Made by a program: the position numbers and the translations under genes. The notes beneath the pieces are model-generated. The model saw only the letters and a program-made list of their open reading frames with translations, ran no database searches and was not told the origin of the DNA. 64,000 bases of DNA, taken from assembly GCA_027038555.1 (NCBI GenBank), contig JALVVX010000017.1, positions 27,834 to 91,833 of the forward strand, given 5' to 3'. This document shows positions 40,268 through 57,522 of this stretch, one piece after another (the first letter of the stretch is position 1; each line of letters begins with the position of its first letter). The stretch comes from Nautiliaceae bacterium. GTDB taxonomy: Bacteria > Campylobacterota > Campylobacteria > Campylobacterales > Nautiliaceae.

Positions 40268-41430
40268 AATCGCTTTTTGGATACGGCATTACCACCAAAG
40301 AGATAGCAAAAGAAGGCGGATGGCAAATTTATGACGATAAATTTAAAGAAGTTTCGTTTGACAAATACGGCAACAGACTTCTGCCAAGCTTCCTTTTTGA
40401 CGAAACAAAATCAAAACTTGAAATAACATCTCCCGGAATACCTCCACATCATCCGTTAATAAAAAAAGCAAAAAATTTAATAAGCGAACTTGATTATTAC
40501 TATAATCCTGATATTTTCCAAATATGGATAACTGGAACAAACGGAAAAACCACAACTACCCAAATGATTCATTTTTTACTTGAAAACAGTGAAATAGGCG
40601 GCAATATAGGTATTCCTCTTGGCAAATTGAATCCCGAAAAAAAATGGGTTATTGAAGTAAGCTCGTTTCAGCTTTATTACACGAAAACGGCAAAACCAGA
40701 TATTTTTGTTATTTTACCTCTTGAAGAAGACCATATTTCATGGCATGGAAGTTTTGAAGAATATAAAAAAGCAAAACTCTCACCTCTAAAAAGAATGAGT
40801 AAAAGAGATATAGTAATAATGCCGCAAAATTTAGATACCAAAACAGACGCTTTTAAAATACTTTATAAAAATGAAGAAGATTTGATAAAATATTTTAATA
40901 TTAAATCAAAAGATTTCGAAGTTCCTTTTTTACTTGACGAATTATTGGCAAAAGCGGTTTATAAAATTCTTACCTTTAAAGAGAAATCTTTAAAAAATTT
41001 TAAAATCGATTCACATAAACTTGAAGAAATTAAAGATTCTAAAAATAGAATATGGGTAGATGATAGTAAAGCCACAAATGTAGATGCCACTTTTAATGCA
41101 CTCAAAAGATATAAAAACAGAAAAATTCATCTAATTATCGGTGGAGTCGATAAAGGGCAAAATTTTGAAAAACTTTTTGAATATATGAAAAATCTTGATA
41201 TCAGGCTTTATATGATAGGAGAAAAAAGAGATGTTTTTAAAAATCTTGCAAAAAAACACAATATAGATTTTATAGAATCTGTTACAATACAAAACGCAGT
41301 AAGTGAAATATCACGGATTTTAAAAGAAAATGAAATTGCACTTTTAAGCCCGGCGTGCGCCAGTTTTGACCAGTTTGAAAGTTATAAGCATAGAGGAGAA
41401 GAATTTAAAAAATGTATAAATTCATTATAA
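40264..41430 (+). CDS. murD: UDP-N-acetylmuramoyl-alanine--D-glutamate ligase
   Basis: 388 residues, shorter than the E. coli enzyme (about 438), mostly through a smaller N-terminal domain. The ATP-binding loop WITGTNGKTTTTQM lies near 90-103. VIEVSSFQLYYT and the C-terminal WVDDSKATNVDATFNAL are typical MurD motifs, as is LLSPACASFDQFESYKHRG. It adds D-glutamate to the peptidoglycan precursor. It overlaps sppA by four bases and the lipoprotein gene by 19 bases. Confidence 0.96.
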   Translation: MKSLFGYGITTKEIAKEGGWQIYDDKFKEVSFDKYGNRLLPSFLFDETKSKLEITSPGIPPHHPLIKKAKNLISELDYYYNPDIFQIWITGTNGKTTTTQMIHFLLENSEIGGNIGIPLGKLNPEKKWVIEVSSFQLYYTKTAKPDIFVILPLEEDHISWHGSFEEYKKAKLSPLKRMSKRDIVIMPQNLDTKTDAFKILYKNEEDLIKYFNIKSKDFEVPFLLDELLAKAVYKILTFKEKSLKNFKIDSHKLEEIKDSKNRIWVDDSKATNVDATFNALKRYKNRKIHLIIGGVDKGQNFEKLFEYMKNLDIRLYMIGEKRDVFKNLAKKHNIDFIESVTIQNAVSEISRILKENEIALLSPACASFDQFESYKHRGEEFKKCINSL

Positions 41431-42338
41431 GTTTAATTATATTCATATTATTTGCAGGTTGTGCAGAAAAGATTAATCCGAATGAATTTCATCCTGTAAT
41501 AAGCCAAAAAGCTATTATTCAACCCACACCAAGAGAAATAAAACATAAACCAAATGTTATAATTTTTACAAAAGATAATAATTATTATGAAAAAAATGCA
41601 AAAAATTATTTAGAGACTAAATTAATAAATTCCAAATACGTTAATATACTAAATAGAAAATCAAATATCCAAGATGAAATAAAACTTGCAGAAAACGCAA
41701 AAGCGACAAACAGTGATTTAAATCAGGCCGATTTTATAATTATTGAAAATATTACCCCAAAAACATACAATGCAAAATATATTCCTCCACAATATTATAA
41801 AGATAAAAAAGGCAGAATTCACAAAATTCCCGGGTATTACCAATATGAAGGGTGCAGTAGCGGGTATATCAATGTTTATTCGGTTTTACCTTACAGACTT
41901 ATAAACTCTATATATGCATCCGGATGTTATTACACAACCACATCCAACTATCAAAATATTAAAAATTATGTTTTACTAAACAGTGTTTATTCGGCTGTGG
42001 ATAATGCAAAATATTCTCTTTATAAGACATTTACACCAAAAGGATATATTTTTGAAATAAGAAAAAAAGATGATGAATTAATTTTGCATACAACACTGGG
42101 TAAAAAAAACGGTGCGAAAGAATATGAAAGAGTGAATATTTATGAAAAACGTATAAAAAAACTTCCTTTTAGCAATGAAAAAATAATAGAAGAAGTAAAA
42201 ATAGGAGAAGGAATAATAAGCAATGTCGTAAATGAAAACGATTCATGGGTAATCGTAAAAAAATTAAAACAAAAACCGAAAATAGGAGATTACATAAAAA
42301 TGAATTATAAACATACATTTTGGGATATATTCAGATGA
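41412..42338 (+). CDS. Putative lipoprotein, LPP20-neighbour type
   Basis: 308 residues with a lipobox signal peptide (FILFAGCAE, lipidated cysteine about 17). The middle has an alpha/beta region (about 45-120) that may be CsgG-like. The C-terminus (IGEGIISNVVNENDSWVIVK, then KPKIGDYIKM) resembles the end domain of FlgT-type flagellar proteins. It starts inside the end of murD and overlaps the next lipoprotein gene as ATGA. A flagellar or outer-membrane role is only inferred. Confidence 0.65.
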   Translation: MYKFIISLIIFILFAGCAEKINPNEFHPVISQKAIIQPTPREIKHKPNVIIFTKDNNYYEKNAKNYLETKLINSKYVNILNRKSNIQDEIKLAENAKATNSDLNQADFIIIENITPKTYNAKYIPPQYYKDKKGRIHKIPGYYQYEGCSSGYINVYSVLPYRLINSIYASGCYYTTTSNYQNIKNYVLLNSVYSAVDNAKYSLYKTFTPKGYIFEIRKKDDELILHTTLGKKNGAKEYERVNIYEKRIKKLPFSNEKIIEEVKIGEGIISNVVNENDSWVIVKKLKQKPKIGDYIKMNYKHTFWDIFR

Positions 42339-43210
42339 AAAAATTAATAGGAATTTTGGTTTTTATATTTTTTGTATCCTGTGCTTCAAACCCTCCGAAA
42401 TGGTATGAAAAAATATATACTGACAATTCTTATTTTATTTATTCCACAGGAGCAGGCAAAACAAAACAAGAAGCCATAAATACAGCTCTTGCAAATGCTT
42501 CTTCCAAAGTTGCCGTTATAGTAAGGAGTACTTATAATTCTTTAAAATACAGCTATAAAGGCAATGACACTTCCGCTTATTCAAACACTTCCGTTTTCGA
42601 TATACAAACCAAGACAAATCCTTTGACTTTTACCGATTATAAAATATTAAAACTTGAAAAAAAAGATAAATATTATGTTTTACTTAAAATAAACAGATAC
42701 AAAAACGCAAAATTTATGTGTGATAATACAGAAATTGAAAATATTGACACTGAGAATTTAAATATATTGTTTAATTATAAAAAAATTATAAATCAATTAA
42801 ATAAAAAAGTCGAAAAATTAAAAAATATAAACGCACTTTATCCTCTGTGCAAAGATAAACTAAAAAATGCCCTTTTATTAAAACAGAAAATAGAAAAAAA
42901 ATATCACAATCTCAGTTTAAATATAATTTCAAATGATGAAAGGTTAAAAGAGATTATTGAATCGTCTTTAAATATAAAATCATTTAATAATGCAAAAATA
43001 CAAATTTATGCAAATTCAAAGACAACATTTAAAAATGTAGGAAATTATAAAATTGCAATAATAAAATTGAATATAAAAATACAATCCCAAAACAAATCAA
43101 GAAATTTTTCCGTTGAATGCGCAGGAAGTTCGATTCAGGATTATTCCGTTGCAAAATCTTTGGCATATAATGTATGTAAAGAGAAAATAAAAAGAATTTT
43201 TAATAATTAA
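42335..43210 (+). CDS. LPP20-family-like lipoprotein
   Basis: 291 residues. Signal peptide and lipobox are at the start (FFVSCAS). Residues about 22-130 carry the LPP20-type sequence PPKWYEK, FIYSTGAGKTKQEAINTALA, NASSKVAVIV, and YYVLLKINRYK. A coiled coil (about 140-200) and a second alpha/beta domain (about 205-291) follow. The family includes H. pylori Lpp20 and the flagellar protein FlgP. The ATG at 42335 overlaps the upstream stop. Its 3' end overlaps another LPP20-type gene on the opposite strand by 11 bases. Confidence 0.75.
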   Translation: MKKLIGILVFIFFVSCASNPPKWYEKIYTDNSYFIYSTGAGKTKQEAINTALANASSKVAVIVRSTYNSLKYSYKGNDTSAYSNTSVFDIQTKTNPLTFTDYKILKLEKKDKYYVLLKINRYKNAKFMCDNTEIENIDTENLNILFNYKKIINQLNKKVEKLKNINALYPLCKDKLKNALLLKQKIEKKYHNLSLNIISNDERLKEIIESSLNIKSFNNAKIQIYANSKTTFKNVGNYKIAIIKLNIKIQSQNKSRNFSVECAGSSIQDYSVAKSLAYNVCKEKIKRIFNN

Positions 43211-46080: not shown

Positions 46081-46503
46081 ATGAGAGATTATACCTACGG
46101 CGATTTTCAAAAAGACCTTCAAAATCTGCAAATTCAAAAACCAGATGCTATTGTGGCAATAGCAAGAGGAGGACTTACTCTTTCACACCATTTGGCAGAA
46201 ATTTTCGATATAAGAGAAGTTTTTACAATTAACGCAATATCTTACAATAAAACACAAAAAAAAGAAAAAATTGATATATTTAATATACCTAATCTTCACG
46301 GATATAAAAATGTTTTAATAGTAGACGATATAAGTGATAGCGGTGATACTTTTATTAAAACACTTAAAATTTTAAAAGAAAAATACAACGATATTAATTT
46401 CAAAACATTTGCTATTTTTTATAAACCCTCTTCAAAATTTAAACCCGATTATTATTGTCATGAAACAGATGAATGGATAAGATTTTTTTGGGAAAGGTAT
46501 TAA
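46081..46503 (+). CDS. Purine-type phosphoribosyltransferase
   Basis: 140 residues. The PRPP-binding loop is VLIVDDISDSGDTFIKTLKI (about 78-97), with AIARGGLTLSHHLAE as the pyrophosphate loop. It ends WIRFFWERY, typical of small xanthine/hypoxanthine or guanine phosphoribosyltransferases. It should salvage purines; the base specificity cannot be read. AAAGGATT precedes the ATG. The stop overlaps the DUF309 gene on the other strand. Confidence 0.85.
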   Translation: MRDYTYGDFQKDLQNLQIQKPDAIVAIARGGLTLSHHLAEIFDIREVFTINAISYNKTQKKEKIDIFNIPNLHGYKNVLIVDDISDSGDTFIKTLKILKEKYNDINFKTFAIFYKPSSKFKPDYYCHETDEWIRFFWERY

Positions 46504-46784
46504 AAAGGTCTTTTTGAATCAAGAAAATTCATAACCTCACTAAACTCTTCTTTTTGAATATAAAGTGTTTTGTATTTCTCATAGGTAGCCCATACTTTTT
46601 TATAATTTTTTCTTCCTCTTTTTTTAAGTTCCATTGCCACAGCGGCATTAATAAAACCTCTATATACGTTTTTATATGGATTATCTGTTTTTCTGATTGT
46701 ATGCCAATATTCTTCCAATATTTCATGAGCTTTATAAAATTCGTTATTATTTATATAATGTTTGAAAATTTCAAAAAGAGACAA
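46500..46784 (-). CDS. DUF309-family protein
   Basis: 94 residues, all helical. The family motif is YKAHEILEEYWHT, followed by YRGFINAAVAMELKKRG. No function is established for the family. I prefer a TTG start at 46784, six bases after AAAAAGGA, to the ATG at 46805, which lacks a ribosome site. It is convergent with the phosphoribosyltransferase gene and overlaps it by four bases. Confidence 0.8.
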   Translation of the reverse strand: MSLFEIFKHYINNNEFYKAHEILEEYWHTIRKTDNPYKNVYRGFINAAVAMELKKRGRKNYKKVWATYEKYKTLYIQKEEFSEVMNFLDSKRPF

Positions 46785-46833
46785 ATTAAATCCTTTTTGT
46801 CTCATTATAAAGAAAAAGGGAGAAAAGTCAAGG

Positions 46834-49800
46834 TTACCAGTTTAATTTTCTAAGGGTATTTTTATTTGTATTGATTTTTTTCAAAGAAGGAATTATATTA
46901 CCAGTTCTATTATTTTCATTATATTTATTATTTTTATTACTTACACCACCCCATCCTAATGATTCATTTAAAAATGAAACTCCAATACAAGGGTGAGTTA
47001 GACAATTTTGATTAAAAATGGACGGGTCTTGATAACCCTCAGCCAAAGGATGATACCAAAGCCAGCTTGGAATTGATAAATGCACTTTTGATTTAAAAGG
47101 TATACTATGGTTGGTAATAAATTTTATCTTCAATATCCCATTATTAACAATGCTTTTTTGAATAGAGATATCTTTTCCAAAACTTTTTGAAATATTTACA
47201 TCTCCGAATATACCGAAATTATGATATTTATTTAAAATCCATACTTTATTGTTTTTAAAATAATAAATCTTATAATTGAAATCCAATTGATAAGAATTGC
47301 CAAAAATTTTCGGATATGCAGCTATGTCATAAGGTTTAAAATAACCATATACAAAATGTGCTCTTCCCGGTACATTTGACATGGTACCGTTAATTTCACC
47401 GTCGTTTCCTTCAATTTTATTTACTGTAAAATTAAAATCTCCGGTTGGAGTTCTATAATTTTTTTCAAAATTAATTTTTATATTCAGTTGTGCAGTTGAA
47501 TTGTTCTCAAACACGTTTTTTTGCAAAGACTGCTCAATATATCCGATTATAGGATCGGTATTTATTTCATTATAACCGTCGATTTTCATTAGCAGTTTTC
47601 TTATTGGCTGATTGTTATTAAATTCAATCTTTAATGTAGTGTTTTTTGCATAACAGTTTTTAGTGTAATTATTTATATTTGAATCGTTAAAACCTACCGC
47701 TTTAACACTCACATTCAGCTCTGCTGACATATTTAAATCGTTTGAAATGTAAGTAAAGTTTTTATTTTTAAAATTATTTAATTGCCCGGAAATTAAGAAT
47801 TTATAAGGTTTTATTATAATAGTTTTAGAATCCGAAATTATCTTTCTATCATTCCATGGAGTATCCGAATTATCGGTTTTTGCAAATTCAGAGCCTTGAA
47901 TCTCTTTTATTTTTAAAATTAAATTTCCTATATCGCTATATCTGGCATTTGTATTTAAAACTCCGTTGTGAAAATTAAAATTGCTAAAAGTAATATTTCC
48001 ACGCTTACATCCCGGTTTAGTTTCGTTATATTCAATTTTTGGTGAAGAAACAAAACTTACTGTTTCATTATAATTATTCAAAACATTATTATTAAAATCA
48101 ACCGCTTTAACCGTTAAATTAAACTCTTTATTTGCCGTTGCTTTTATCGGGGTGCTCAAAACAAATTTATAAGGTCTTATCGCAAAAGAATCACTGCTAA
48201 AACTGTAATCATAAGTGTATCCCGGTGTATGATTATCACATAACTGTGTAGGATAAATCATTCCAAGCGAAGAATTTTTTGTACAGTATTTAAACCTTAC
48301 TTTTACATTTTTATAAGCTTTATCCACATTAAACGATTTGTTAATCATCATTCTTACCAATGAAAAAGGCTCAAAGTTTGTTATAGGATTATTCGTATTG
48401 CTATCATATAGCTGAAAGAATACATTTGTTCCGTTTACTAAATTTGCAGCATTTTGAGGAGAAATAAATACAATTTTTAAAACGAAAGGTTTTCCTGCAA
48501 TTTTTGTTTTTATTATTCTGTGGGCAGAAGTTTCATCAGCATCAAAAGCATCAAAATTTCCTATTATATTTGAAGGCGGAGTTTTATCGTCAACACATTT
48601 TGCCAATAACCCACTGTAATTAGCATTTGTAAAATAATAATCACCGTAAATAGCCGTATCATATTTACTGTTAAAAAGTCCCATTGTCTGATACTTGATT
48701 TTTGCATAATTGTTTTTTTCTTTATCAAACGGCATTAAGTAATTATCTTTATCTTTTATTTTTCCTATTTTAAGTGTTTTATCTGAATATAAAACTTTTA
48801 AGTCATTCAATGACGCATTGTCGTCTATATGATTGAGATTTTGCTGATTTGCATTTTTTACATAAGTGGAATTTTTTATATAAGAAAGTGAGTTAAACTG
48901 ATTAACTACATAAAAATCTTCAATAGGAAAATTTTCTTCGTTTTTAATATTGTACTCAATGAAATATTTTTGTCCTTTTTTAATATCATCAATATTTACA
49001 GTATTATTGTTTTCATCATATATTCTCATATTATAATAACAGATTTTAGGAATATCGAGTTCTACGCAAAACCCTACCATTGATAAAAGATACCTGTCAT
49101 TATCGGTTTTAAATTTTATATTTGCGTTAGTTTCAGAATTATTTATATAATCGCTTAAATCTATTTTATCAATATTTATACCAAGATTGTTTACAAAATT
49201 CGGATATCTCTCACTTACATTTTTACCATTAGTTGAAACAGTTGAATTCATTATATCATTGCTTGGATTAAGTTTATCACTTAATGTTTTATTATTAAAC
49301 TTAATATCATCTGCCATATTTAAATCTGTTTCATTTGCAAAAAAGACCAATGAAGAATCTACTTTCCCTTTTGATTTAGCTTTAAAACCATCTACATTAA
49401 TTGAAAGTTCTTTATCAAATCCATCTTTATCCCATAAAGGTTTAAATCCCTGATAAACAACTACTTTTTTAAATGTATAATTTCTGTTTTTAACAACAAC
49501 AGCTAATGCCCAACCTCCGGATGAGTCTTTACCTTCGCTTAATTGTAAATCTTTTAGATAATATTTTCCCCCGCCTGCATTTCTGATTATATCCGTTATA
49601 TCTCTAAACCCTGCATAATCAAAAATATTGTATTTATCGCTATAATACCAGTTAAAAGAGTCACTATTCGCTTCTATTTCTCTGTATTCAGATTCATTTG
49701 GCAATTTAAATTTAACTATTTTTGCTTTTTTTACTTTTTCAGATTCGTTTGGATTTTCAGTTTTTATCCTGCCTTGCCAAAAAAGTCCGGCCCAAACAAT

Positions 49801-50826
49801 CTCATCACCGTTTTTTAAATCTAATTTTGCATACGAAACATCAGATTCATTATTGATTTTTACATATTTTAAATTGACGTTATCGTTATTATCGCTTTTT
49901 GAAGGATTAATACACTTGCCTTCATTATCTGACTTACATAGGTTTGTGTTTCCAGTAACCAACAATTTTCCGTTTATTTTTTCATCAAAAATTTTTCTAA
50001 AATCCAAAAGATTTGCTTTTGTATAATCATCACATTGATTTAATCTTCCTATATGCAGATAACCATTTTTAATATATCTTACATAAGTATTTTCCGAACT
50101 GAAAAGCTCTAAATTAACGATACTTTTAACCCAAATTGAAAGATTATCATCACTGCTTAAATTGTTTAAATTATATTCAAGGGACTTATCAAGAAAACCG
50201 AATTTCCACAAATCAATTCTATTGGCAATTTCACATGTTTTATCCGTACTTTGAGGATTTATGCCGCAGCTTTTAAAGGCATTCCCTTGAAATAAGGTCG
50301 GGTCTACATGATCAATTATAACATTTTCAAGACTTCCAAAAACATCAATATCATAAGTATATTTACAATTAATTCCCCCGCTAACAGGAATACCAAGAGG
50401 ATCTTTAAAACAGAAAAAACCATCTTCTGTTTTTTGTCGGTAACAAATATCGTGAGTATCTTCAATTATTTCCGGAGTAAAAGTTATTTTACCTACAACT
50501 TGTGACGATTTTTTTTCGATTTTTATAAAAACTTTATCATCTGGATTCACATATAAATTAAAATTTACATTTTTAGCCGAAATATTTTCACCTGTTACAC
50601 AACTGTTTTTGCCGGCTTTAAAAATAAAATTTTTATTTGAAGTAAGATTAATATCCACTTTACCTTTTATTTTTACATTAAAAGTATATACAACCGAAGT
50701 ATCACTTTGCATAACTGAATAGGACGATTTATTTATCACATTATTCAATTTTTCGATTAATAAGGGATTGTTGCAGTCATATGCATTTAAGAGGAGAAAA
50801 AAAAGAAAAAAGATGATTTTTTTCAA
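46834..50826 (-). CDS. Very large secreted surface protein, MshQ-like C-terminus
   Basis: 1330 residues. A signal peptide (about 1-16) is followed by beta-rich domains. A region around 590-690 (CYYNMRIYDENNNTVNIDDI, FFIEYNIKNEENFP-like) resembles DUF11-type adhesin domains. The C-terminal about 450 residues contain DFNNNVLNNYNETVSFV and PSWLWYHPLAEGYQDPSIFN, shared with the protein encoded upstream and with MshQ-type proteins. Cysteines are frequent (for example NQNCLTHPC). It starts with TTG at 50826 after AAGGAA. It is probably an exported adhesin or pilus-associated factor; no pilin gene is seen here. Confidence 0.7.
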   Translation of the reverse strand: MKKIIFFLFFLLLNAYDCNNPLLIEKLNNVINKSSYSVMQSDTSVVYTFNVKIKGKVDINLTSNKNFIFKAGKNSCVTGENISAKNVNFNLYVNPDDKVFIKIEKKSSQVVGKITFTPEIIEDTHDICYRQKTEDGFFCFKDPLGIPVSGGINCKYTYDIDVFGSLENVIIDHVDPTLFQGNAFKSCGINPQSTDKTCEIANRIDLWKFGFLDKSLEYNLNNLSSDDNLSIWVKSIVNLELFSSENTYVRYIKNGYLHIGRLNQCDDYTKANLLDFRKIFDEKINGKLLVTGNTNLCKSDNEGKCINPSKSDNNDNVNLKYVKINNESDVSYAKLDLKNGDEIVWAGLFWQGRIKTENPNESEKVKKAKIVKFKLPNESEYREIEANSDSFNWYYSDKYNIFDYAGFRDITDIIRNAGGGKYYLKDLQLSEGKDSSGGWALAVVVKNRNYTFKKVVVYQGFKPLWDKDGFDKELSINVDGFKAKSKGKVDSSLVFFANETDLNMADDIKFNNKTLSDKLNPSNDIMNSTVSTNGKNVSERYPNFVNNLGINIDKIDLSDYINNSETNANIKFKTDNDRYLLSMVGFCVELDIPKICYYNMRIYDENNNTVNIDDIKKGQKYFIEYNIKNEENFPIEDFYVVNQFNSLSYIKNSTYVKNANQQNLNHIDDNASLNDLKVLYSDKTLKIGKIKDKDNYLMPFDKEKNNYAKIKYQTMGLFNSKYDTAIYGDYYFTNANYSGLLAKCVDDKTPPSNIIGNFDAFDADETSAHRIIKTKIAGKPFVLKIVFISPQNAANLVNGTNVFFQLYDSNTNNPITNFEPFSLVRMMINKSFNVDKAYKNVKVRFKYCTKNSSLGMIYPTQLCDNHTPGYTYDYSFSSDSFAIRPYKFVLSTPIKATANKEFNLTVKAVDFNNNVLNNYNETVSFVSSPKIEYNETKPGCKRGNITFSNFNFHNGVLNTNARYSDIGNLILKIKEIQGSEFAKTDNSDTPWNDRKIISDSKTIIIKPYKFLISGQLNNFKNKNFTYISNDLNMSAELNVSVKAVGFNDSNINNYTKNCYAKNTTLKIEFNNNQPIRKLLMKIDGYNEINTDPIIGYIEQSLQKNVFENNSTAQLNIKINFEKNYRTPTGDFNFTVNKIEGNDGEINGTMSNVPGRAHFVYGYFKPYDIAAYPKIFGNSYQLDFNYKIYYFKNNKVWILNKYHNFGIFGDVNISKSFGKDISIQKSIVNNGILKIKFITNHSIPFKSKVHLSIPSWLWYHPLAEGYQDPSIFNQNCLTHPCIGVSFLNESLGWGGVSNKNNKYNENNRTGNIIPSLKKINTNKNTLRKLNW

Positions 50827-50851
50827 CTATTATTCCTTATTTATTAAGACA

Positions 50852-53800
50852 TTACCAATTTAATTTTTTAACTGATTTTTTATTTACATTAATTTTATCC
50901 AAAGATGAATTCATTTCGGATGTTCGGTTTGTTTCTTTATATTTTTTAGTATTAATTCCTACACCACCCCATCCTTTTGAATCTTTTTCAAAAAACGCAT
51001 TAAAACAAGGATGAGTTAAACAGTCTTGATTGCTTGCAGATGGGTCTTGATAATTTTTTGCTAACGGATGATACCAAAGCCAACTTGGAACTGCGACATG
51101 AACTTTTACTTTATAAGGAAGTGCATGTGTAGTGCTTAATGTAACTTTTTGTAAACCATTACTCAAACTATCTTTTGAATAATTAACATCGCTGGAATTA
51201 ATGTAAAGGGATTTTATTTCACCAAAAGAATTATTAATATGATTGGTATTTAAAACCCAGTCGTTATTATTCCAATATTGATATTTTGCTGTGTCGCTTA
51301 ATGTTGAATTATATCCGGCAACATTATCGATAAATATTCTTCCATAATAAAACTGAGCCGATTGATTTAGAGTTTGAGAACCGTTTGCATCATTATCTGT
51401 TACATTTATATCATTTATCGTAAAATTAAAATTATTTACCGGTTTTCTGCTGTTTCTTGGAAAGTTTATCTTAATATGAATATAGGCTTCTCCTTTGTGA
51501 GATGTAGTAAAATAATTTTTATTTAAACTCAATTGAATAGGATTGTTTATATTGGTATTTTGAATAATATTTTGAGAAGTTTCCATATATCTGACACTGT
51601 TAATATTACTCGGTACCGAATGAGTGATTGTTAATGTAATGTTTTTAGCATACATAGTGTTATTATAATATTCGGTAACATTACCATCTTTATTAATTGC
51701 TGTTATATTTATATCAAGATTTGATGACATATTCAAATCATTGGATAAATAAGTAAAAGAAGAATTGTTAAAATTTGAATATTTTGCATCTATTCTAAAT
51801 GCAAAAGGAATAAATTTTATACTTCTTCTTGCACTTTGTATAAATCTTGCAGAAACGTTGGTATCATTAGCATCAACAAGCGCAAATTCACTGCCGTTAA
51901 CTTCATCAATAGTAATATTTCCTTCTCCTACATCAGGATATCTTAAAGTTAATGTAACCACTCCGTTAGAAAATTTTCTGTTTGTAGAAGTTATATCAAT
52001 TAACTTCGTTGCGTTTGCATCATTATCAATATATTTAATTCTAGGCGAATTAACAACAGATACAATTTCATTGTAATTTTGTGCTGGATTGTTTTGATAA
52101 TCAAGTGCTTTTACAGTAATATTAAATTCTTCTCCGGCTTTTACCACAGTTGGAGCGTTTTGGATTACAAATTTATATGGTCTTATTGCAAAGTCATCAC
52201 TTGAAAAACATTTTCTCCATGCTACTGTTCCAGGATTTTCTCTACATTGATATACCGCATTTGAACATTGACTTGAATCTTTTATAATCAAACTTCCATT
52301 AGAATCCACATCCGCACATATTTTAAATTCAACTTTTACATCTTTTACGCTTTTACTTATATTAAACTTATGCTCGATTGAAGCGTTTGAAGTGTTAAAA
52401 TCATAAAAAGGAGTAATTTCCGTTTGATTAAATACATCATATAATGCAAACTTAACATTACCTTTATTAAGTGAGGTTTCTTGATTATTTTCAATTCCTG
52501 CAATTGTTAAGTTAAATTCTTTATTTACTATTTTGGTTTTGATAACTCTATGAGTTATATTTTCATCTGCATCCCAAGCATCAATTAAAGCAATAGTATC
52601 AGAAGGATTACTTAAAGATGTCGCAGGAACATTTCCACAATAATCCAATTTAATATTTTTATAATATCTTCCATATTCATCGATATAATCTGCAAAAAAG
52701 TTATTTAAGTTACTACCTTGTATAGTTGTATCAATTCCAAAAGTTGTCTCCAAAGCATTATAATGCTCAAATCCCGTTGCGTTATATTCTCCCAAATATG
52801 CAGTGGTTTCAGAAATTGTTTGTATATCACTCGCCCCAACAGGAGGTTGAATATCTCCTCTTGGAGGAGCAGTAACAACTCCTTTACCTTTTTTAATAAT
52901 TGGTGGTAAACTAATTGTTGTATCTAACAAATCATTATGATATTGATAAGTCGTATTGTTTTCCAAGTCTTTAAATACAGTATTGTTATTTTCATCAATT
53001 AATCTATAGAGTTGAGGAGTTGTACCTGTAAACCAACTCGGGTCAGTTTCTTTTAATGTTACATTCAAATCTTTTAATGTTTGATTTGATTCGTTTATGA
53101 TTGCCGACCTTTTTGGCATTTTAAAAGTCATTTTCAAAAAGTCCATAATACTTATCCAATGCCCGTTTATCTGGTCTGCATAACATAAAGGACAATCACC
53201 ATACCCAAGTTTGTCATTTGTCCCTCTATATATAAAATGTGCATAATCAGAATCTATTGTGATATCACCTTCGGCTGTTATTCCCCCATACCAGTAAAAA
53301 TCATCTGAGCTTGATTTAAATTCAACGTTTCCTTTGACATAACTAAATGCATATATATGCAATGGAGTATTTTCGGTATCTTTAAACTCCATATTACCGC
53401 CGACATATATAAAAAGATTGTTTTCATCCCCATTATCATTTATATAAACATTGTTTTTATCAAACTTTAAATTTTCTTTAACAAATATTCTTACAGGTCC
53501 ACCATCGAGTATATTTATATGAATATTATCACCATTAAAAGTCAAATCATCAAAATAATAATCACCCGGTTTAAAATTGAGCGTTATATTATTCTCTTTA
53601 AAAGTCCAAGAACCAAAAGTAGAATAATTGGTATCACTATCGGAATAACGTGTTCGAGGATAAAAATTCAAAACTAAATTTGGTGAATCAAAATCGTAAT
53701 TTTCATAATCGGTTTCAGTAAAATACAAATTTTCTGGTATAGGTGTTGTTTGGTTACTTTCCAATAAATTAGGATTATATCTATTATCAGGAGGATTTTT

Positions 53801-55333
53801 TACGTTACAATTAGTAGCATTATCACAACTTTGACTTAAACTACATTTTATATAATCAATATTATTGACTTTATTGGCAAAAAGATTCTCACTTCCACAT
53901 ACTTTCGGTTTGGTTCCGTTACCTTGAATAGTATCATAAGTAATTAAAGGACCCTTAAAAAGACCGCACACATAATAGTTATCCTTTTCAGATGAAACCA
54001 CCTGAGCAAGACAAGCCTGAGACTCAGGAAGAGATTCAATACTTTTATCCCAATAAAATTGACTTTCATTTCCTATTGTAATAGTTTTATAACTTGATAT
54101 AGCTCCTCTAACGTATGTATATTTTCCTAAATTAGTTTCTCCTTCTAAATAAATTAGAGCATTAACAGTTGTACCATCATTAGCAGAGTCGGCATCACCA
54201 ACTTCAAAATCGCCATTTACAAAAATTCTAAAATTAGCCGGAGGATTATTACCAAATTGACCACCGGAACCTTCGCTATTTATCCCGAAATTTTTTCCTA
54301 CTTCAAAATCATGATTTTGACTTAAAGGGTCTAAATATAAATTTATTATTTCGTTTTCACTACTTGCATTTACAAAAGATTTACCGCTACCACTAATAGG
54401 AATATCAATATCTTTAATATAATAATCACCACTATCCCAAATCATTTGAGAACTTGAAGATATATTCGTTTGTCTGTTATAAAATTTAACTTTTTTCCCA
54501 GGAGTATAAGGATGTATATTAAGAGTACTTTGTTCTCCAAAATCAATCTCATCAATATCAATTTCATCTGCATAAATAGTAATATGATTATTACCACCCG
54601 TTAAATCCAACTTTCTTATAATTATTTTAGGAGCTTTTAAAGTTATATTAGTCTCTGCATTGCTATCAAGTAAAAAAGTATCAATTTCAATATTATCTTT
54701 TGCTTCCATGCCTTCATTTCCAGCTGTTAAAAAAGACAAAACATTGCTTCCAGTCGATTCAATTTTGTAAATTTTAATATTATTTGGAATTTGTTTTAAG
54801 TTTAAAGTAGTTCTATCATTTGAATCAGTGATAAATTTACCTATTTTTAAATCTTTATTCTCAATGTTATCAATTGTTACGGTATTAAGCATCTTATCAA
54901 ATTTATTTACACCTATATCATCACCACTCGGAGCCCAAGTAAAATTATAATGATTGTCATTTTGAGTAATATTATTATATTTGTCATTATTTAAAGTTTC
55001 ATTATCTTCTGTAATTTCATAACTATCGCCTCCCCCTGGATATTCAGAAACATTTGGTGTTAAAAGAGTGAAACTATAATTTATATCCAAACTTTTAGCA
55101 TAAATGCCTGATGCCGTTGCAAATCCATCTTTACATTTTAAGCCATAATCACCATCTCTATATACACTACCAGTATTCAAAACACAACCTGGTGAGTCAT
55201 AGATATAAGCTACACTGTTACTATTTACATCTATCGACGAAGGATCTTTTCTTGTTTGCAATACATTTGTAAATACACCACACTCTGCAAGTAAAAAGTT
55301 AAAAGAAATTATCATTAAAATTAGCTTTTTCAT
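50852..55333 (-). CDS. Very large secreted surface protein, MshQ-like, paralogue
   Basis: 1493 residues. The signal peptide is MKKLILMIISFNFLLAECG, and the ATG at 55333 has AAAAAGGATTG upstream. Two regions (about 200-320 and 590-720) look like beta-helices of repeated short strands (IIIRKLDLTGGNNHITIYAD). The C-terminal about 560 residues (from about 940) have YQNNPAQNYNEIVSVVNSPR and PSWLWYHPLAKNYQDPSASN, parallel to the downstream protein and to MshQ/DUF6701. It lies 25 bases upstream of its paralogue, so they form one unit. Likely an outer-surface adhesin; the function is inferred. Confidence 0.7.
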   Translation of the reverse strand: MKKLILMIISFNFLLAECGVFTNVLQTRKDPSSIDVNSNSVAYIYDSPGCVLNTGSVYRDGDYGLKCKDGFATASGIYAKSLDINYSFTLLTPNVSEYPGGGDSYEITEDNETLNNDKYNNITQNDNHYNFTWAPSGDDIGVNKFDKMLNTVTIDNIENKDLKIGKFITDSNDRTTLNLKQIPNNIKIYKIESTGSNVLSFLTAGNEGMEAKDNIEIDTFLLDSNAETNITLKAPKIIIRKLDLTGGNNHITIYADEIDIDEIDFGEQSTLNIHPYTPGKKVKFYNRQTNISSSSQMIWDSGDYYIKDIDIPISGSGKSFVNASSENEIINLYLDPLSQNHDFEVGKNFGINSEGSGGQFGNNPPANFRIFVNGDFEVGDADSANDGTTVNALIYLEGETNLGKYTYVRGAISSYKTITIGNESQFYWDKSIESLPESQACLAQVVSSEKDNYYVCGLFKGPLITYDTIQGNGTKPKVCGSENLFANKVNNIDYIKCSLSQSCDNATNCNVKNPPDNRYNPNLLESNQTTPIPENLYFTETDYENYDFDSPNLVLNFYPRTRYSDSDTNYSTFGSWTFKENNITLNFKPGDYYFDDLTFNGDNIHINILDGGPVRIFVKENLKFDKNNVYINDNGDENNLFIYVGGNMEFKDTENTPLHIYAFSYVKGNVEFKSSSDDFYWYGGITAEGDITIDSDYAHFIYRGTNDKLGYGDCPLCYADQINGHWISIMDFLKMTFKMPKRSAIINESNQTLKDLNVTLKETDPSWFTGTTPQLYRLIDENNNTVFKDLENNTTYQYHNDLLDTTISLPPIIKKGKGVVTAPPRGDIQPPVGASDIQTISETTAYLGEYNATGFEHYNALETTFGIDTTIQGSNLNNFFADYIDEYGRYYKNIKLDYCGNVPATSLSNPSDTIALIDAWDADENITHRVIKTKIVNKEFNLTIAGIENNQETSLNKGNVKFALYDVFNQTEITPFYDFNTSNASIEHKFNISKSVKDVKVEFKICADVDSNGSLIIKDSSQCSNAVYQCRENPGTVAWRKCFSSDDFAIRPYKFVIQNAPTVVKAGEEFNITVKALDYQNNPAQNYNEIVSVVNSPRIKYIDNDANATKLIDITSTNRKFSNGVVTLTLRYPDVGEGNITIDEVNGSEFALVDANDTNVSARFIQSARRSIKFIPFAFRIDAKYSNFNNSSFTYLSNDLNMSSNLDINITAINKDGNVTEYYNNTMYAKNITLTITHSVPSNINSVRYMETSQNIIQNTNINNPIQLSLNKNYFTTSHKGEAYIHIKINFPRNSRKPVNNFNFTINDINVTDNDANGSQTLNQSAQFYYGRIFIDNVAGYNSTLSDTAKYQYWNNNDWVLNTNHINNSFGEIKSLYINSSDVNYSKDSLSNGLQKVTLSTTHALPYKVKVHVAVPSWLWYHPLAKNYQDPSASNQDCLTHPCFNAFFEKDSKGWGGVGINTKKYKETNRTSEMNSSLDKINVNKKSVKKLNW

Positions 55334-55394: not shown

Positions 55395-56144
55395 TTAAAA
55401 ATTAACTTCTTCAAGGCACTTTTTTGCCACTTTTTTAAATTCTTCCGGATTATCACTTGAAAAAAGTTTTATTGAAGTTTTGTTTTTTTGAATAAAATTA
55501 AAATTATCTCGAATCATTTTTACTATTGCCTGTCCTGAATGGATAAGTTTTGCATTTGGGAAATGTTTTTTAAAAGTTTTACTTAAAAAAGGATAATGGG
55601 TACAGCCTAATATTACGATATCTATTTTTTCTTTATCGATACCTTCAAAATACATATCAAAAATTTTATCCGTAATTTCTCCTTCAATAAGACCTTCTTC
55701 CACAAGAGGTACAAAAAGGGGAGTGGCTATTGAAGTAATATTTTTAAATCCGTTTTTTTGAAGCAATTTTTGATATTTGCCTGATTTTATCGTCCTTTTT
55801 GTACCGACAAGCAAAATATTAGAGTTTTTATCTTCGTTTTTAAGCGCTTCAACCCCTGCTTCAATTACTCCTAAAACCGGGAAATCAGCTTCACGCCTAA
55901 GCTCTTCAACAGCCACAGCACTTGCCGTATTACACGCTACAACTAAAAAATCAATATCAAAATTTTTAAGAAATTCAAGTGCTTCGAGAGAATATCTGAT
56001 AATTGTACTTTCGTTTTTATTTCCATACGGAACCCTTGCAGTATCCCCGTAATATATTATTTCATCAAAAATATTTGCTTTTAAAATCTCTCTTGCTACG
56101 CTAATACCGCCGATTCCACTGTCAAAAATACCACATCTATTCAT
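55395..56144 (-). CDS. murI: Glutamate racemase
   Basis: 249 residues. Both catalytic cysteines are in conserved motifs: [14 protein letters not shown] and LGCTHYPFL. The N-terminal [14 protein letters not shown] is typical. It makes D-glutamate for MurD. It overlaps the end of rho by eight bases on the same strand and is probably cotranscribed with it. Confidence 0.96.
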
Positions 56145-57522
56145 TAATAACGCTTAAAAATTCCTGATTGTTTTTTGTTTTTAACATTTTTGAATAAAGA
56201 AGTTTAAGAGCTTCAATCTCATCCATTTCACTTATAATATTTCTAATAGCCCAAACTTTTGCAAGTTCTTCCGGGGTTAATAAAAGCTCTTCTTTTCTTG
56301 TTCCGGATTTAAGCAAATCAATTGCAGGATAAATTCTTCTATCGGCAATTCTTCTGCTAAGTACCGCTTCCATATTACCGGTACCTTTGAATTCTTCGAA
56401 AATAACCTCATCCATTTTTGAACCGGTATCAATAAGAGCTGTCGCTATAATTGTTAAACTTCCACCCTCTTCAATATTTCTTGCCGCTCCGAAAAATCTT
56501 TTTGGTTTATGTAGAGCATTTGCATCAACACCACCGCTTAGCACTTTTCCGCTTGCAGGTGTTACAGTATTATAAGCCCTTGCAAGACGAGTTATTGAAT
56601 CAAGTAAAATAACTACATCTTTTCCCATTTCAACCATTCTTTTGGCTTTTTCTATTACAAGTTCGGCTACCCTTACGTGATTTTGCGCCGGTTTATCAAA
56701 AGTCGAGCTGAAAACTTCGCCTTTTACGCTTCTTTGCATATCCGTAACTTCTTCTGGTCTTTCATCAACCAAAAGAACCATAAGTTCCACTTCCGGATGG
56801 TTTTTGGTAATTCCGTGTGCTATTTCTTTCAAAAACACTGTTTTACCGCTTCTTGGAGGTGCTACTACAAGCCCTCTTTGACCTTTTCCGATAGGCGCAA
56901 ACAAATCAAGGACTCTTCCTGTTAATTTTGTAGGTTCATATTCAAGTTTTAATTTCTCCTGAGGATAAAGAGGTGTTAAGTTATCAAAAAGAGGTCTTTT
57001 TTTCGCTTCTTCGGGAGGGAGGTAATTTACCGCTTCAATTTTTAAAAGTGCGTAATATTTTTCCTGATCTTTTGGGGGTCTTATCTGGCCTGTAACAATA
57101 TCCCCGGTACGAAGTGCAAATCTTTTAATTTGAGTTTGTGAAACATACACGTCATTTACCGAATTTTCAAAATTCCCCCCGATACTTCTTAAAAATCCGT
57201 ATCCATCAGGCATTATTTCAAGTATACCTGTAAATAAAAGATATCCGCCCTGCTGAACCTGAGTTTTAAGTATTTCAAACATTAAATCCTGTCTTTTGTA
57301 TTCCTGAGGATTTTCAACACCTAATTTTTTGGCTATTTCAATAAGTTCGTCTGTTGGCATATTTCTAAGTGTTTCGATAGTGTAACCCTCTACCGGAATA
57401 TGCGTTCTTTGCTTTTTAGTATTTGAATTAGATTCATTTGTGCTTTTTTGAGCGGAATTCTCTTTTTGGGCTTGTTGGGACTCTGTGCTTTGTGTATTAT
57501 TTTCCATATTTTGATTTTCCAT
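56137..57522 (-). CDS. rho: Transcription termination factor Rho
   Basis: 461 residues. A Gln/Asn/Ser-rich N-terminal extension (about 1-40) precedes the Rho N-domain ([20 protein letters not shown]), the cold-shock RNA-binding domain (GYGFLRS) and the ATPase domain with Walker [10 protein letters not shown] and [14 protein letters not shown]. It terminates transcription as a hexameric helicase. The ATG at 57522 has AAGGA upstream, and a consensus-like promoter lies 50-80 bases before it. Confidence 0.97.

Follow-up and report, generated by a model that had tools for sequence, protein, structure and literature searches.

Two tandem MshQ-like proteins of a Nautiliaceae bacterium as probable tip proteins of a second, dispersed MSHA-like pilus

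The window analysed here, a stretch of 64,000 nucleotides from a bacterium of the Nautiliaceae, a family of the Campylobacterota (C17:27834-91833 in a genome, G000, of 1.48 Mb in 51 contigs and 96.98% complete), contains two adjacent genes on the minus strand, P0001 (46834..50826) and P0002 (50852..55360), which code for large MshQ-like proteins. These are probably tip proteins of a second mannose-sensitive hemagglutinin (MSHA)-like pilus whose genes are dispersed in the genome, the C-terminal part docking on the minor pilins of this system and the N-terminal part binding a surface. As judged from sequence, the two proteins have a common C-terminus, and the genome encodes two MSHA-like machines (systems A and B) with separate D-O-P type minor pilins; relatives of P0001 and P0002 are linked to system B elsewhere, the MshQ-like proteins of the two systems differ in clade and in terminal tail, the genes occupy a recurrent slot, and the trees of the N- and C-terminal parts conflict. 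MshQ-like genes are here called Q, and the lineages tied to systems A and B, Q_A and Q_B, respectively; both P0001 and P0002 were placed in the B lineage from their open reading frames (ORFs), BLASTP and a tree.

The common C-terminal part

P0001 and P0002 are alike in a DUF6701-type C-terminal part (residues 744-1330, minus strand 46834..48597, and residues 911-1502, minus strand 50852..52630, respectively). Residues 751-1330 of the former align by BLASTP with residues 919-1502 of the latter (244/594 identical, 41%, E 2e-113), a region that includes both PSWLWYHPLA and CLTHPC, and no significant BLASTP match was found between the N-terminal halves. This confirms the initial annotation, which had described two large paralogues sharing a C-terminus with the PSWLWYHPLA block and having unrelated N-termini. 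It had also called these C-termini MshQ-like, and a profile search does link them to DUF6701 by homology, although the direct Pfam call fails. A profile derived exclusively from seven DUF6701-positive stretches of three other genera matched P0002 (E 3e-116), Q3, a third Q of the genome (2e-95), and P0001 (5e-92). It matched none of the remaining pilus proteins, which served as controls. DUF6701 itself was found on a relative in genome G008 (81.7 bits) and, by a six-frame search, on the G003 orthologue of P0002 (87.5 bits), whose C-terminal part is 84% identical to that of P0002; the same G003 stretch was missed by hmmscan, and the HMMER filters may be the cause of the missed calls. This transitive profile evidence assigns the C-terminal part of both window proteins to DUF6701 of the MshQ type, and by homology they are of the MshQ/DUF6701 kind.

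The predicted structure of the P0002 C-terminus (mean predicted local distance difference test score, pLDDT, of 84.0) has a body made of a row of beta-sandwiches, and the matches listed for it are immunoglobulin (Ig)-like arrays; a beta-propeller is not among the matches listed, an absence that does not exclude this fold. A relationship with complement or macroglobulin proteins was discarded, as the Foldseek matches of both models had TM-scores of at most 0.28 with large root-mean-square deviation (rmsd), signalling only a row of Ig-like domains. There was no PilY1-type Pfam match on the window proteins at E<=1, no NCBIfam match to P0001 or P0002, no relative by sequence in the PDB and, for the C-terminus of Q3, no match in plasmids.

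Two MSHA-like machines and the partner of P0001 and P0002

The absence of a pilus locus pointed out in the initial annotation is true of the 64-kb window only, as the genome has two MSHA-like systems and Q3 adjoins one of them. System A is on the contig of the window, C17, and starts 3.0 kb from Q3 (C17:150713-153568, 951 residues, with a right-handed beta-helix N-terminus, 52.3 bits); it is composed of D-O-P type pilins and I-, J-, K-, L-, M- and N-like genes, and includes at its far end an ATPase of the GspE type, a platform protein of the GspF type and two pilins. System B is spread over three contigs: C11 carries a run I-J-K-L-M-N with no Q, pilins or ATPase beside the secretin, C41 a second D-O-P operon amid housekeeping genes, and C13 three pilins, a GspE-type ATPase and a GspF-type gene. 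We assigned the letters D, O, P, I, J, K, M and N by analogy with the msh operon, going by gene order and size, and profile support is limited to the secretin, ATPase and platform genes. The two secretins are 59% identical and both have MshL (TIGR02519) as best model (227.7 bits for A and 232 bits for B, neither reaching the cut-off of 250.2); as the MshE-related cyclic di-GMP domain NF053729 is also present above its cut-off in both ATPases, the genome encodes an MSHA-type machine. One ATPase match seemed to contain a TGA codon and proved to be an intact frame of 544 residues. Only two secretins were found at E<=1e-10, with a third machine not evident in G000, and the second-type D-O-P operon is also present in the four other genomes checked (G008, G009, G012 and G014).

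In both systems, the pilins and ATPases have scores with type II secretion system (T2SS) models as well, and an account of type IV filaments lists, in the part consulted, cargo proteins as tip-located T2SS effectors (PMC10191384). Both facts would suit system B being an MSHA/T2SS-like secretion machine with Q_B as its cargo and not as a pilus part. This is a quite improbable explanation, given that both secretins match MshL best, not GspD, and that Q is encoded within the minor-pilin operon in six genomes outside the Nautiliaceae, as tip proteins are.

The pairing of P0001 and P0002 with system B, as tip proteins of its pilus, relies on their relatives. Among 56 Q-like frames collected from fetched stretches (53 rows in the Q C-terminal tree), 16 adjoin A-type pilins and six lie directly beside B-type D-O-P genes (G022, G025, G029, G037, G041 and G042, all outside the Nautiliaceae). 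P0001 and P0002 are not beside MSHA minor pilins, Q3 is, and so are B-type relatives in six other families. The O pilin of those six loci is closer to O_B than to O_A of the window genome, and G042 has both combinations, its A-type Q accompanying an A set and its B-type Q a B set. The O tree (27 rows) splits A from B at 100/100; the A clade has 16 rows (15 with Q and secretin-locus genes nearby and one with Q only), and the B clade includes six rows with Q nearby and five Nautiliaceae rows with neither Q nor secretin-locus genes. In a scan of named genomes, 19 loci were found, ten of them outside the Nautiliaceae (Sulfuricurvum, Campylobacterales and Helicobacteraceae records), and an O-type pilin lies within about 3 kb of Q at nine of these ten, the contig of the tenth ending 4.5 kb past Q without one. 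When the 16 A-linked Qs and that of G002 were constrained as one clade in the Q C-terminal tree, the likelihood was 1.29 above that of the free tree (approximately unbiased test, p-AU 0.53); since the constrained tree is not worse, the data allow the A-linked Qs to form a single clade from which P0001 and P0002 are excluded. Two large DUF6701-like proteins of G051 (L146 and L147), with the tail RLGR, form a very distant outgroup (branch 2.57) and are perhaps a sign of a further kind of partner system.

Elimination was based on 11 Nautiliaceae genomes that are 96.98-100% complete (G000, G006, G008, G009, G011-G015, G017 and G018). All 11 have the B secretin, O_B and a Q_B, the last being incomplete in three (a 40-residue piece at a contig end in G006, broken in G013 and split over two contigs in G018). 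An intact A secretin is found in six of the 11, and Q_A in five of those six, the A contig of G006 ending before the end of Q, and in none of the five genomes without an intact A secretin. Since Q_B stands beside no pilin in the Nautiliaceae, its pairing with system B is deduced from phylogeny and elimination. It could be argued that P0001 and P0002 are spare tips beside Q3 for system A, or for the two machines alike, because the window and system A share a contig and the C-termini of the three paralogues are homologous. This seems unlikely: four genomes without the A secretin (G008, G012, G017 and G018, 98-100% complete) and G015, with a decayed one, all keep Q_B, and the A-linked Qs are compatible with a clade that excludes Q_B and end in a different tail. 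The decaying A secretin of G015 contains internal stops (L132 8741-9595; G015:C36:13719-14660), and this genome has no A-type Q and keeps a B-type Q, so that the system A machine was apparently lost along with its tip protein. G013 has the B secretin, and its slot Q looks broken, consisting of a 466-residue fragment (L055 8735-10135) and a matching piece upstream (G013:C1:1124821-1125123).

The two lineages also differ in their terminal peptides. All 16 A-linked Qs end in the pattern G-V/I-K/R-x-x-R, and five of the six B-linked ones in a hydrophobic residue followed by N/E/S/D/Y and W. Among 30 unlinked Qs, 25 have the B tail, one the A tail and four neither, and the remaining frames comprise an unclassed one with the A tail and three without a stop; as background, of 1476 other complete ORFs one carries the A pattern and two the B pattern. 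The last five residues of both window proteins are of B type, ending LNW in P0001 (minus strand 46837..46851) and being KKLNW in P0002 (minus strand 50855..50869). In the P0002 model, the last 40 residues have pLDDT values under 50 and the terminal W is invariant in nine relatives, a flexible stretch with a conserved end that would suit a docking peptide. Sulfuricurvum-type Qs (L163, L164 and L168-L175), mostly beside D-O-P pilins, have their own conserved end, DY[AST]PA, a further tail type. PilY1 has been predicted to pair with a minor pilin by strand complementation, according to the part of the source consulted (PMC13190605), which cites a 2026 preprint by Ellison on strand complementation.

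P0001 and P0002 could instead be free-standing surface adhesins that act independently of a pilus and have kept DUF6701 as a stalk, which would make them a new fibre. Their size, Ig-like folds and modular build are shared with many adhesins, and no pilin gene was found beside genes of their type in 15 Nautiliaceae genomes. This reading is improbable, as their terminal residues and C-terminal core are conserved with relatives outside the family that adjoin D-O-P pilins, and every genome that retains Q_B (11/11) also retains the secretin and D-O-P operon of B type. The new kind of surface fibre proposed in the initial annotation is not supported, the two MSHA-like systems and the relatives beside minor pilins making P0001 and P0002 better read as pilus-tip components, for which an adhesin role is likely.

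Several points weigh against their being tip proteins of the system B pilus. Pfam DUF6701 (PF20419) itself is not reported on P0001 or P0002, the Q_B genes of the Nautiliaceae adjoin no pilin, and the co-occurrence of system B and Q_B in 11/11 genomes is uninformative. The B-linked Q of G022 sits on a long branch within the A group of the free tree and lacks the B tail, and the tail patterns were defined after inspecting the tails. In addition, no experiment placing MshQ at the pilus tip was found in the portions of the MSHA literature searched. The G022 Q (L150 8213-9931) is itself a protein of 572 residues with almost no N-terminal part and without the terminal W of the B tail.

In the mechanism that we propose for the system B pilus, P0001 and P0002 would be exported, and the row of C-terminal Ig-like sandwiches, with its flexible L-N-W tail, would join the initiation complex of D-O-P minor pilins encoded on another contig, so that Q_B would be pushed out at the pilus tip. 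The N-terminal parts (S-type sandwiches in P0001 and H-type DUF7305 beta-solenoids in P0002) would then be the exposed binding ends, and the tandem Q genes could offer a choice of tips, alternative to each other on one pilus, with the slot holding other tips across the family.

Exchange of N-terminal parts and the rho-murI slot

P0001 (1330 residues, with a TTG start) has an S-type N-terminal part, residues 1-743 (minus strand 48598..50826). In the model, Ig-like sandwiches are found towards the end of this part, where the fold predicted for residues 592-743 is similar to Ig-like modules of adhesins and pilins (best VIA-align Z of 12.5, with 132 aligned and an rmsd of 3.2). A V-set_2 match (17 bits, cut-off 28) was taken as chance. 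P0002 (1502 residues, or 1493 from an in-frame ATG at 55333, which is plausibly the true start) has an H-type N-terminus of two modules, residues 25-459 (minus strand 53984..55288) and residues 460-910 (minus strand 52631..53983), the second containing a Pfam DUF7305 domain at 590-663 (31.9 bits, cut-off 27). The two modules have no mutual match at E 1e-4, hence no internal repeat is claimed, and module 1 is missing from the orthologues in G003 and G004, two genomes of the same genus, and matched in G018 and G025. In the initial annotation the N-terminal halves were described as DUF11-like in P0001 and beta-helical in P0002; the beta-helix fits the DUF7305 of P0002, and DUF11-like is a fair description of the P0001 fold, although P0001 has no Pfam DUF11 match and nothing above cut-off. 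Relatives carry H_lectin (G009), Laminin_G_3 (G054), beta-helix, Calx-beta and Ig-like domains in their N-termini. A pilin N-terminus is not present in the P0001 and P0002 sequences, which have no pilin match in Pfam or NCBIfam.

The exchange of the exposed part suggested in the initial annotation gains support from the conflict between N- and C-terminal trees. By BLAST to the Q N-termini of the window genome itself, 53 rows were classed as S (P0001-like, 13), H (P0002-like, nine), Q3-like (five) or left unclassed (26). The S/H label needs five changes on the C tree, every one forced by well-supported branches, and compared with shuffles it is weakly clustered (34-37 of 500 as low). In groups picked after viewing the trees, which makes the p-values flattering, two adjacent array genes of G012 have sister C-termini (100/100) and N-termini that reject this pairing (p-AU 1.6e-5), an N-terminal group of G029, G012_8561 and G014 is rejected by the C-termini (p 1.7e-5), and G005 combines an N-terminus of the P0001 kind (100/99) with another C lineage (p 0.02). 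A like exchange of N-terminal parts is seen by sequence in the Qs of system A, since the C parts of Q3 and of its counterpart in G003 share 64% identity and their N parts have no clear relation (24% over 221).

A recent duplication of P0001 and P0002 was rejected, because they have separate orthologues in G003 and their C-termini are just 41% identical; on this evidence they are old paralogues. Faster substitution in the exposed part was also rejected, as P0001 and its G003 orthologue are 65% identical in the N part and 62% in the C part. For P0002 and its orthologue in that genome, identity is 90% in the second module and 84% in the C part. Change comes by module and not by point mutation.

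Both genes belong to a minus-strand run, rho-murI-P0002-P0001-DUF309-type gene, in which rho (56137..57522) and murI (55395..56144) overlap by 8 bases and are followed by gaps of 34, 25 and 28 bases, the DUF309-type gene being at 46500..46805; the names of these three genes, which form the conserved flanks of the slot, are presumed by us from their sequences. The surroundings of unlinked Qs were surveyed in 15 Nautiliaceae genomes, and Q genes are found between rho-murI and the DUF309-type gene in ten of them (G000, G001, G003, G005, G008, G009, G011, G013, G014 and G015). In G004, G012 and G018, where contigs or stretches end, each piece retains a single flank, which is of this kind; in G017 the murD-side neighbours of the window are visible, not the rho-murI/DUF309 flanks, and in G019 only the rluD side. 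The slot holds one to three Q genes of different lineages, even within one genus, and sometimes one or two further genes; no pilin gene adjoins the slot Qs in any of the 15 genomes. The flanking MurI (12 genomes) tracks the genus, with g1, g3 and g5 each as one clade at 100/99 and g2 not resolved as one. Grouping the eight g1 Qs as one clade is rejected (log-likelihood 486.6 lower, p-AU 7.6e-94, 21 rows), and different Q lineages are present in the same-genus pairs G009/G013 and G011/G014. Such differences are expected in part from old paralogues in a tandem array, and both transfer and differential loss fit them.

We tentatively propose that the rho-murI slot could serve throughout the family as a cassette site holding one to three interchangeable Q_B genes, whose N and C parts would recombine within the array and between strains, and that the last residues (L-N-W versus the G-V-K-I-F-R type) might be an address that distinguishes two co-resident MSHA-like pili. 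A promoter and terminator scan was uninformative, with 89 promoter-like sites (67.2 in shuffles, standard deviation 8.8) and six terminator-like ones (4.4, standard deviation 2.3). Elsewhere in the window, the stretch 41412-43210, between a murD-type gene and tRNA-Phe, contains two secreted-looking frames that are also present in G001, G003, G008 and G018 and have no match in the corresponding stretch of G012.

Comparison with known pilus-tip proteins

According to the excerpts consulted, MshQ has been described in Vibrio cholerae as a "putative adhesin", whose loss lowers surface pili while retraction continues (PMC7096442), swapping mshQ between strains of V. fischeri altered squid colonisation (PMC4094467), and MshQ has been counted among the MSHA components of unknown function (PMC9815625). 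Literature searches found nothing on DUF6701, work on Leptospira only for Campylobacterota MSHA type IV pili, work on sinking particles only for Sulfurimonas MSHA and, for Nautiliaceae pili or MSHA, no Nautiliaceae work among the matches listed. The model proposed here, with two MSHA-like pili per cell, each with its own tip-protein lineage and terminal peptide, and a slot that varies between close relatives, is testable; if true, vent bacteria could alter what a pilus binds without altering the pilus, and the approach offers a route from an orphan MshQ-like gene to its partner machine.

The MshQ proteins of Vibrio, Shewanella and Aeromonas are similar to these Qs in the DUF6701-type C-terminal part, in being encoded with MSHA-type minor pilins and a secretin, as in system A and elsewhere in the order, and in their variable length between strains, as noted for Shewanella in the part of the source consulted (PMC7439477). 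Unlike MshQ, P0001 and P0002 belong to a distinct B lineage that has a terminal peptide of its own, and they lie in tandem, off the pilus operons, in a fixed slot among housekeeping genes. In Streptococcus sanguinis PilB and PilC, adhesive modules are likewise grafted on a conserved pilus part, as far as the excerpt consulted describes them (PMC10191384), but these proteins are pilins, unlike P0001 and P0002. The PilY1/PilC tip adhesins of type IVa pili, of which Myxococcus xanthus has three PilY1, share with Q_B a conserved C-terminal part (used by PilY1/PilC in pilus priming), different N-terminal modules and several copies, in the portions of the sources consulted (PMC13190605; PMC9109919). 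The C-terminus of PilY1 is a beta-propeller, whereas Ig-like sandwiches are predicted in that of Q_B, and each M. xanthus PilY1 is encoded in its own minor-pilin cluster (PMC13190605, in part), unlike the Q_B of Nautiliaceae, with no adjoining minor pilins. By analogy, P0001 and P0002 would function in the manner of these M. xanthus PilY1 tips, in which several copies combine a common C-terminus with different heads.

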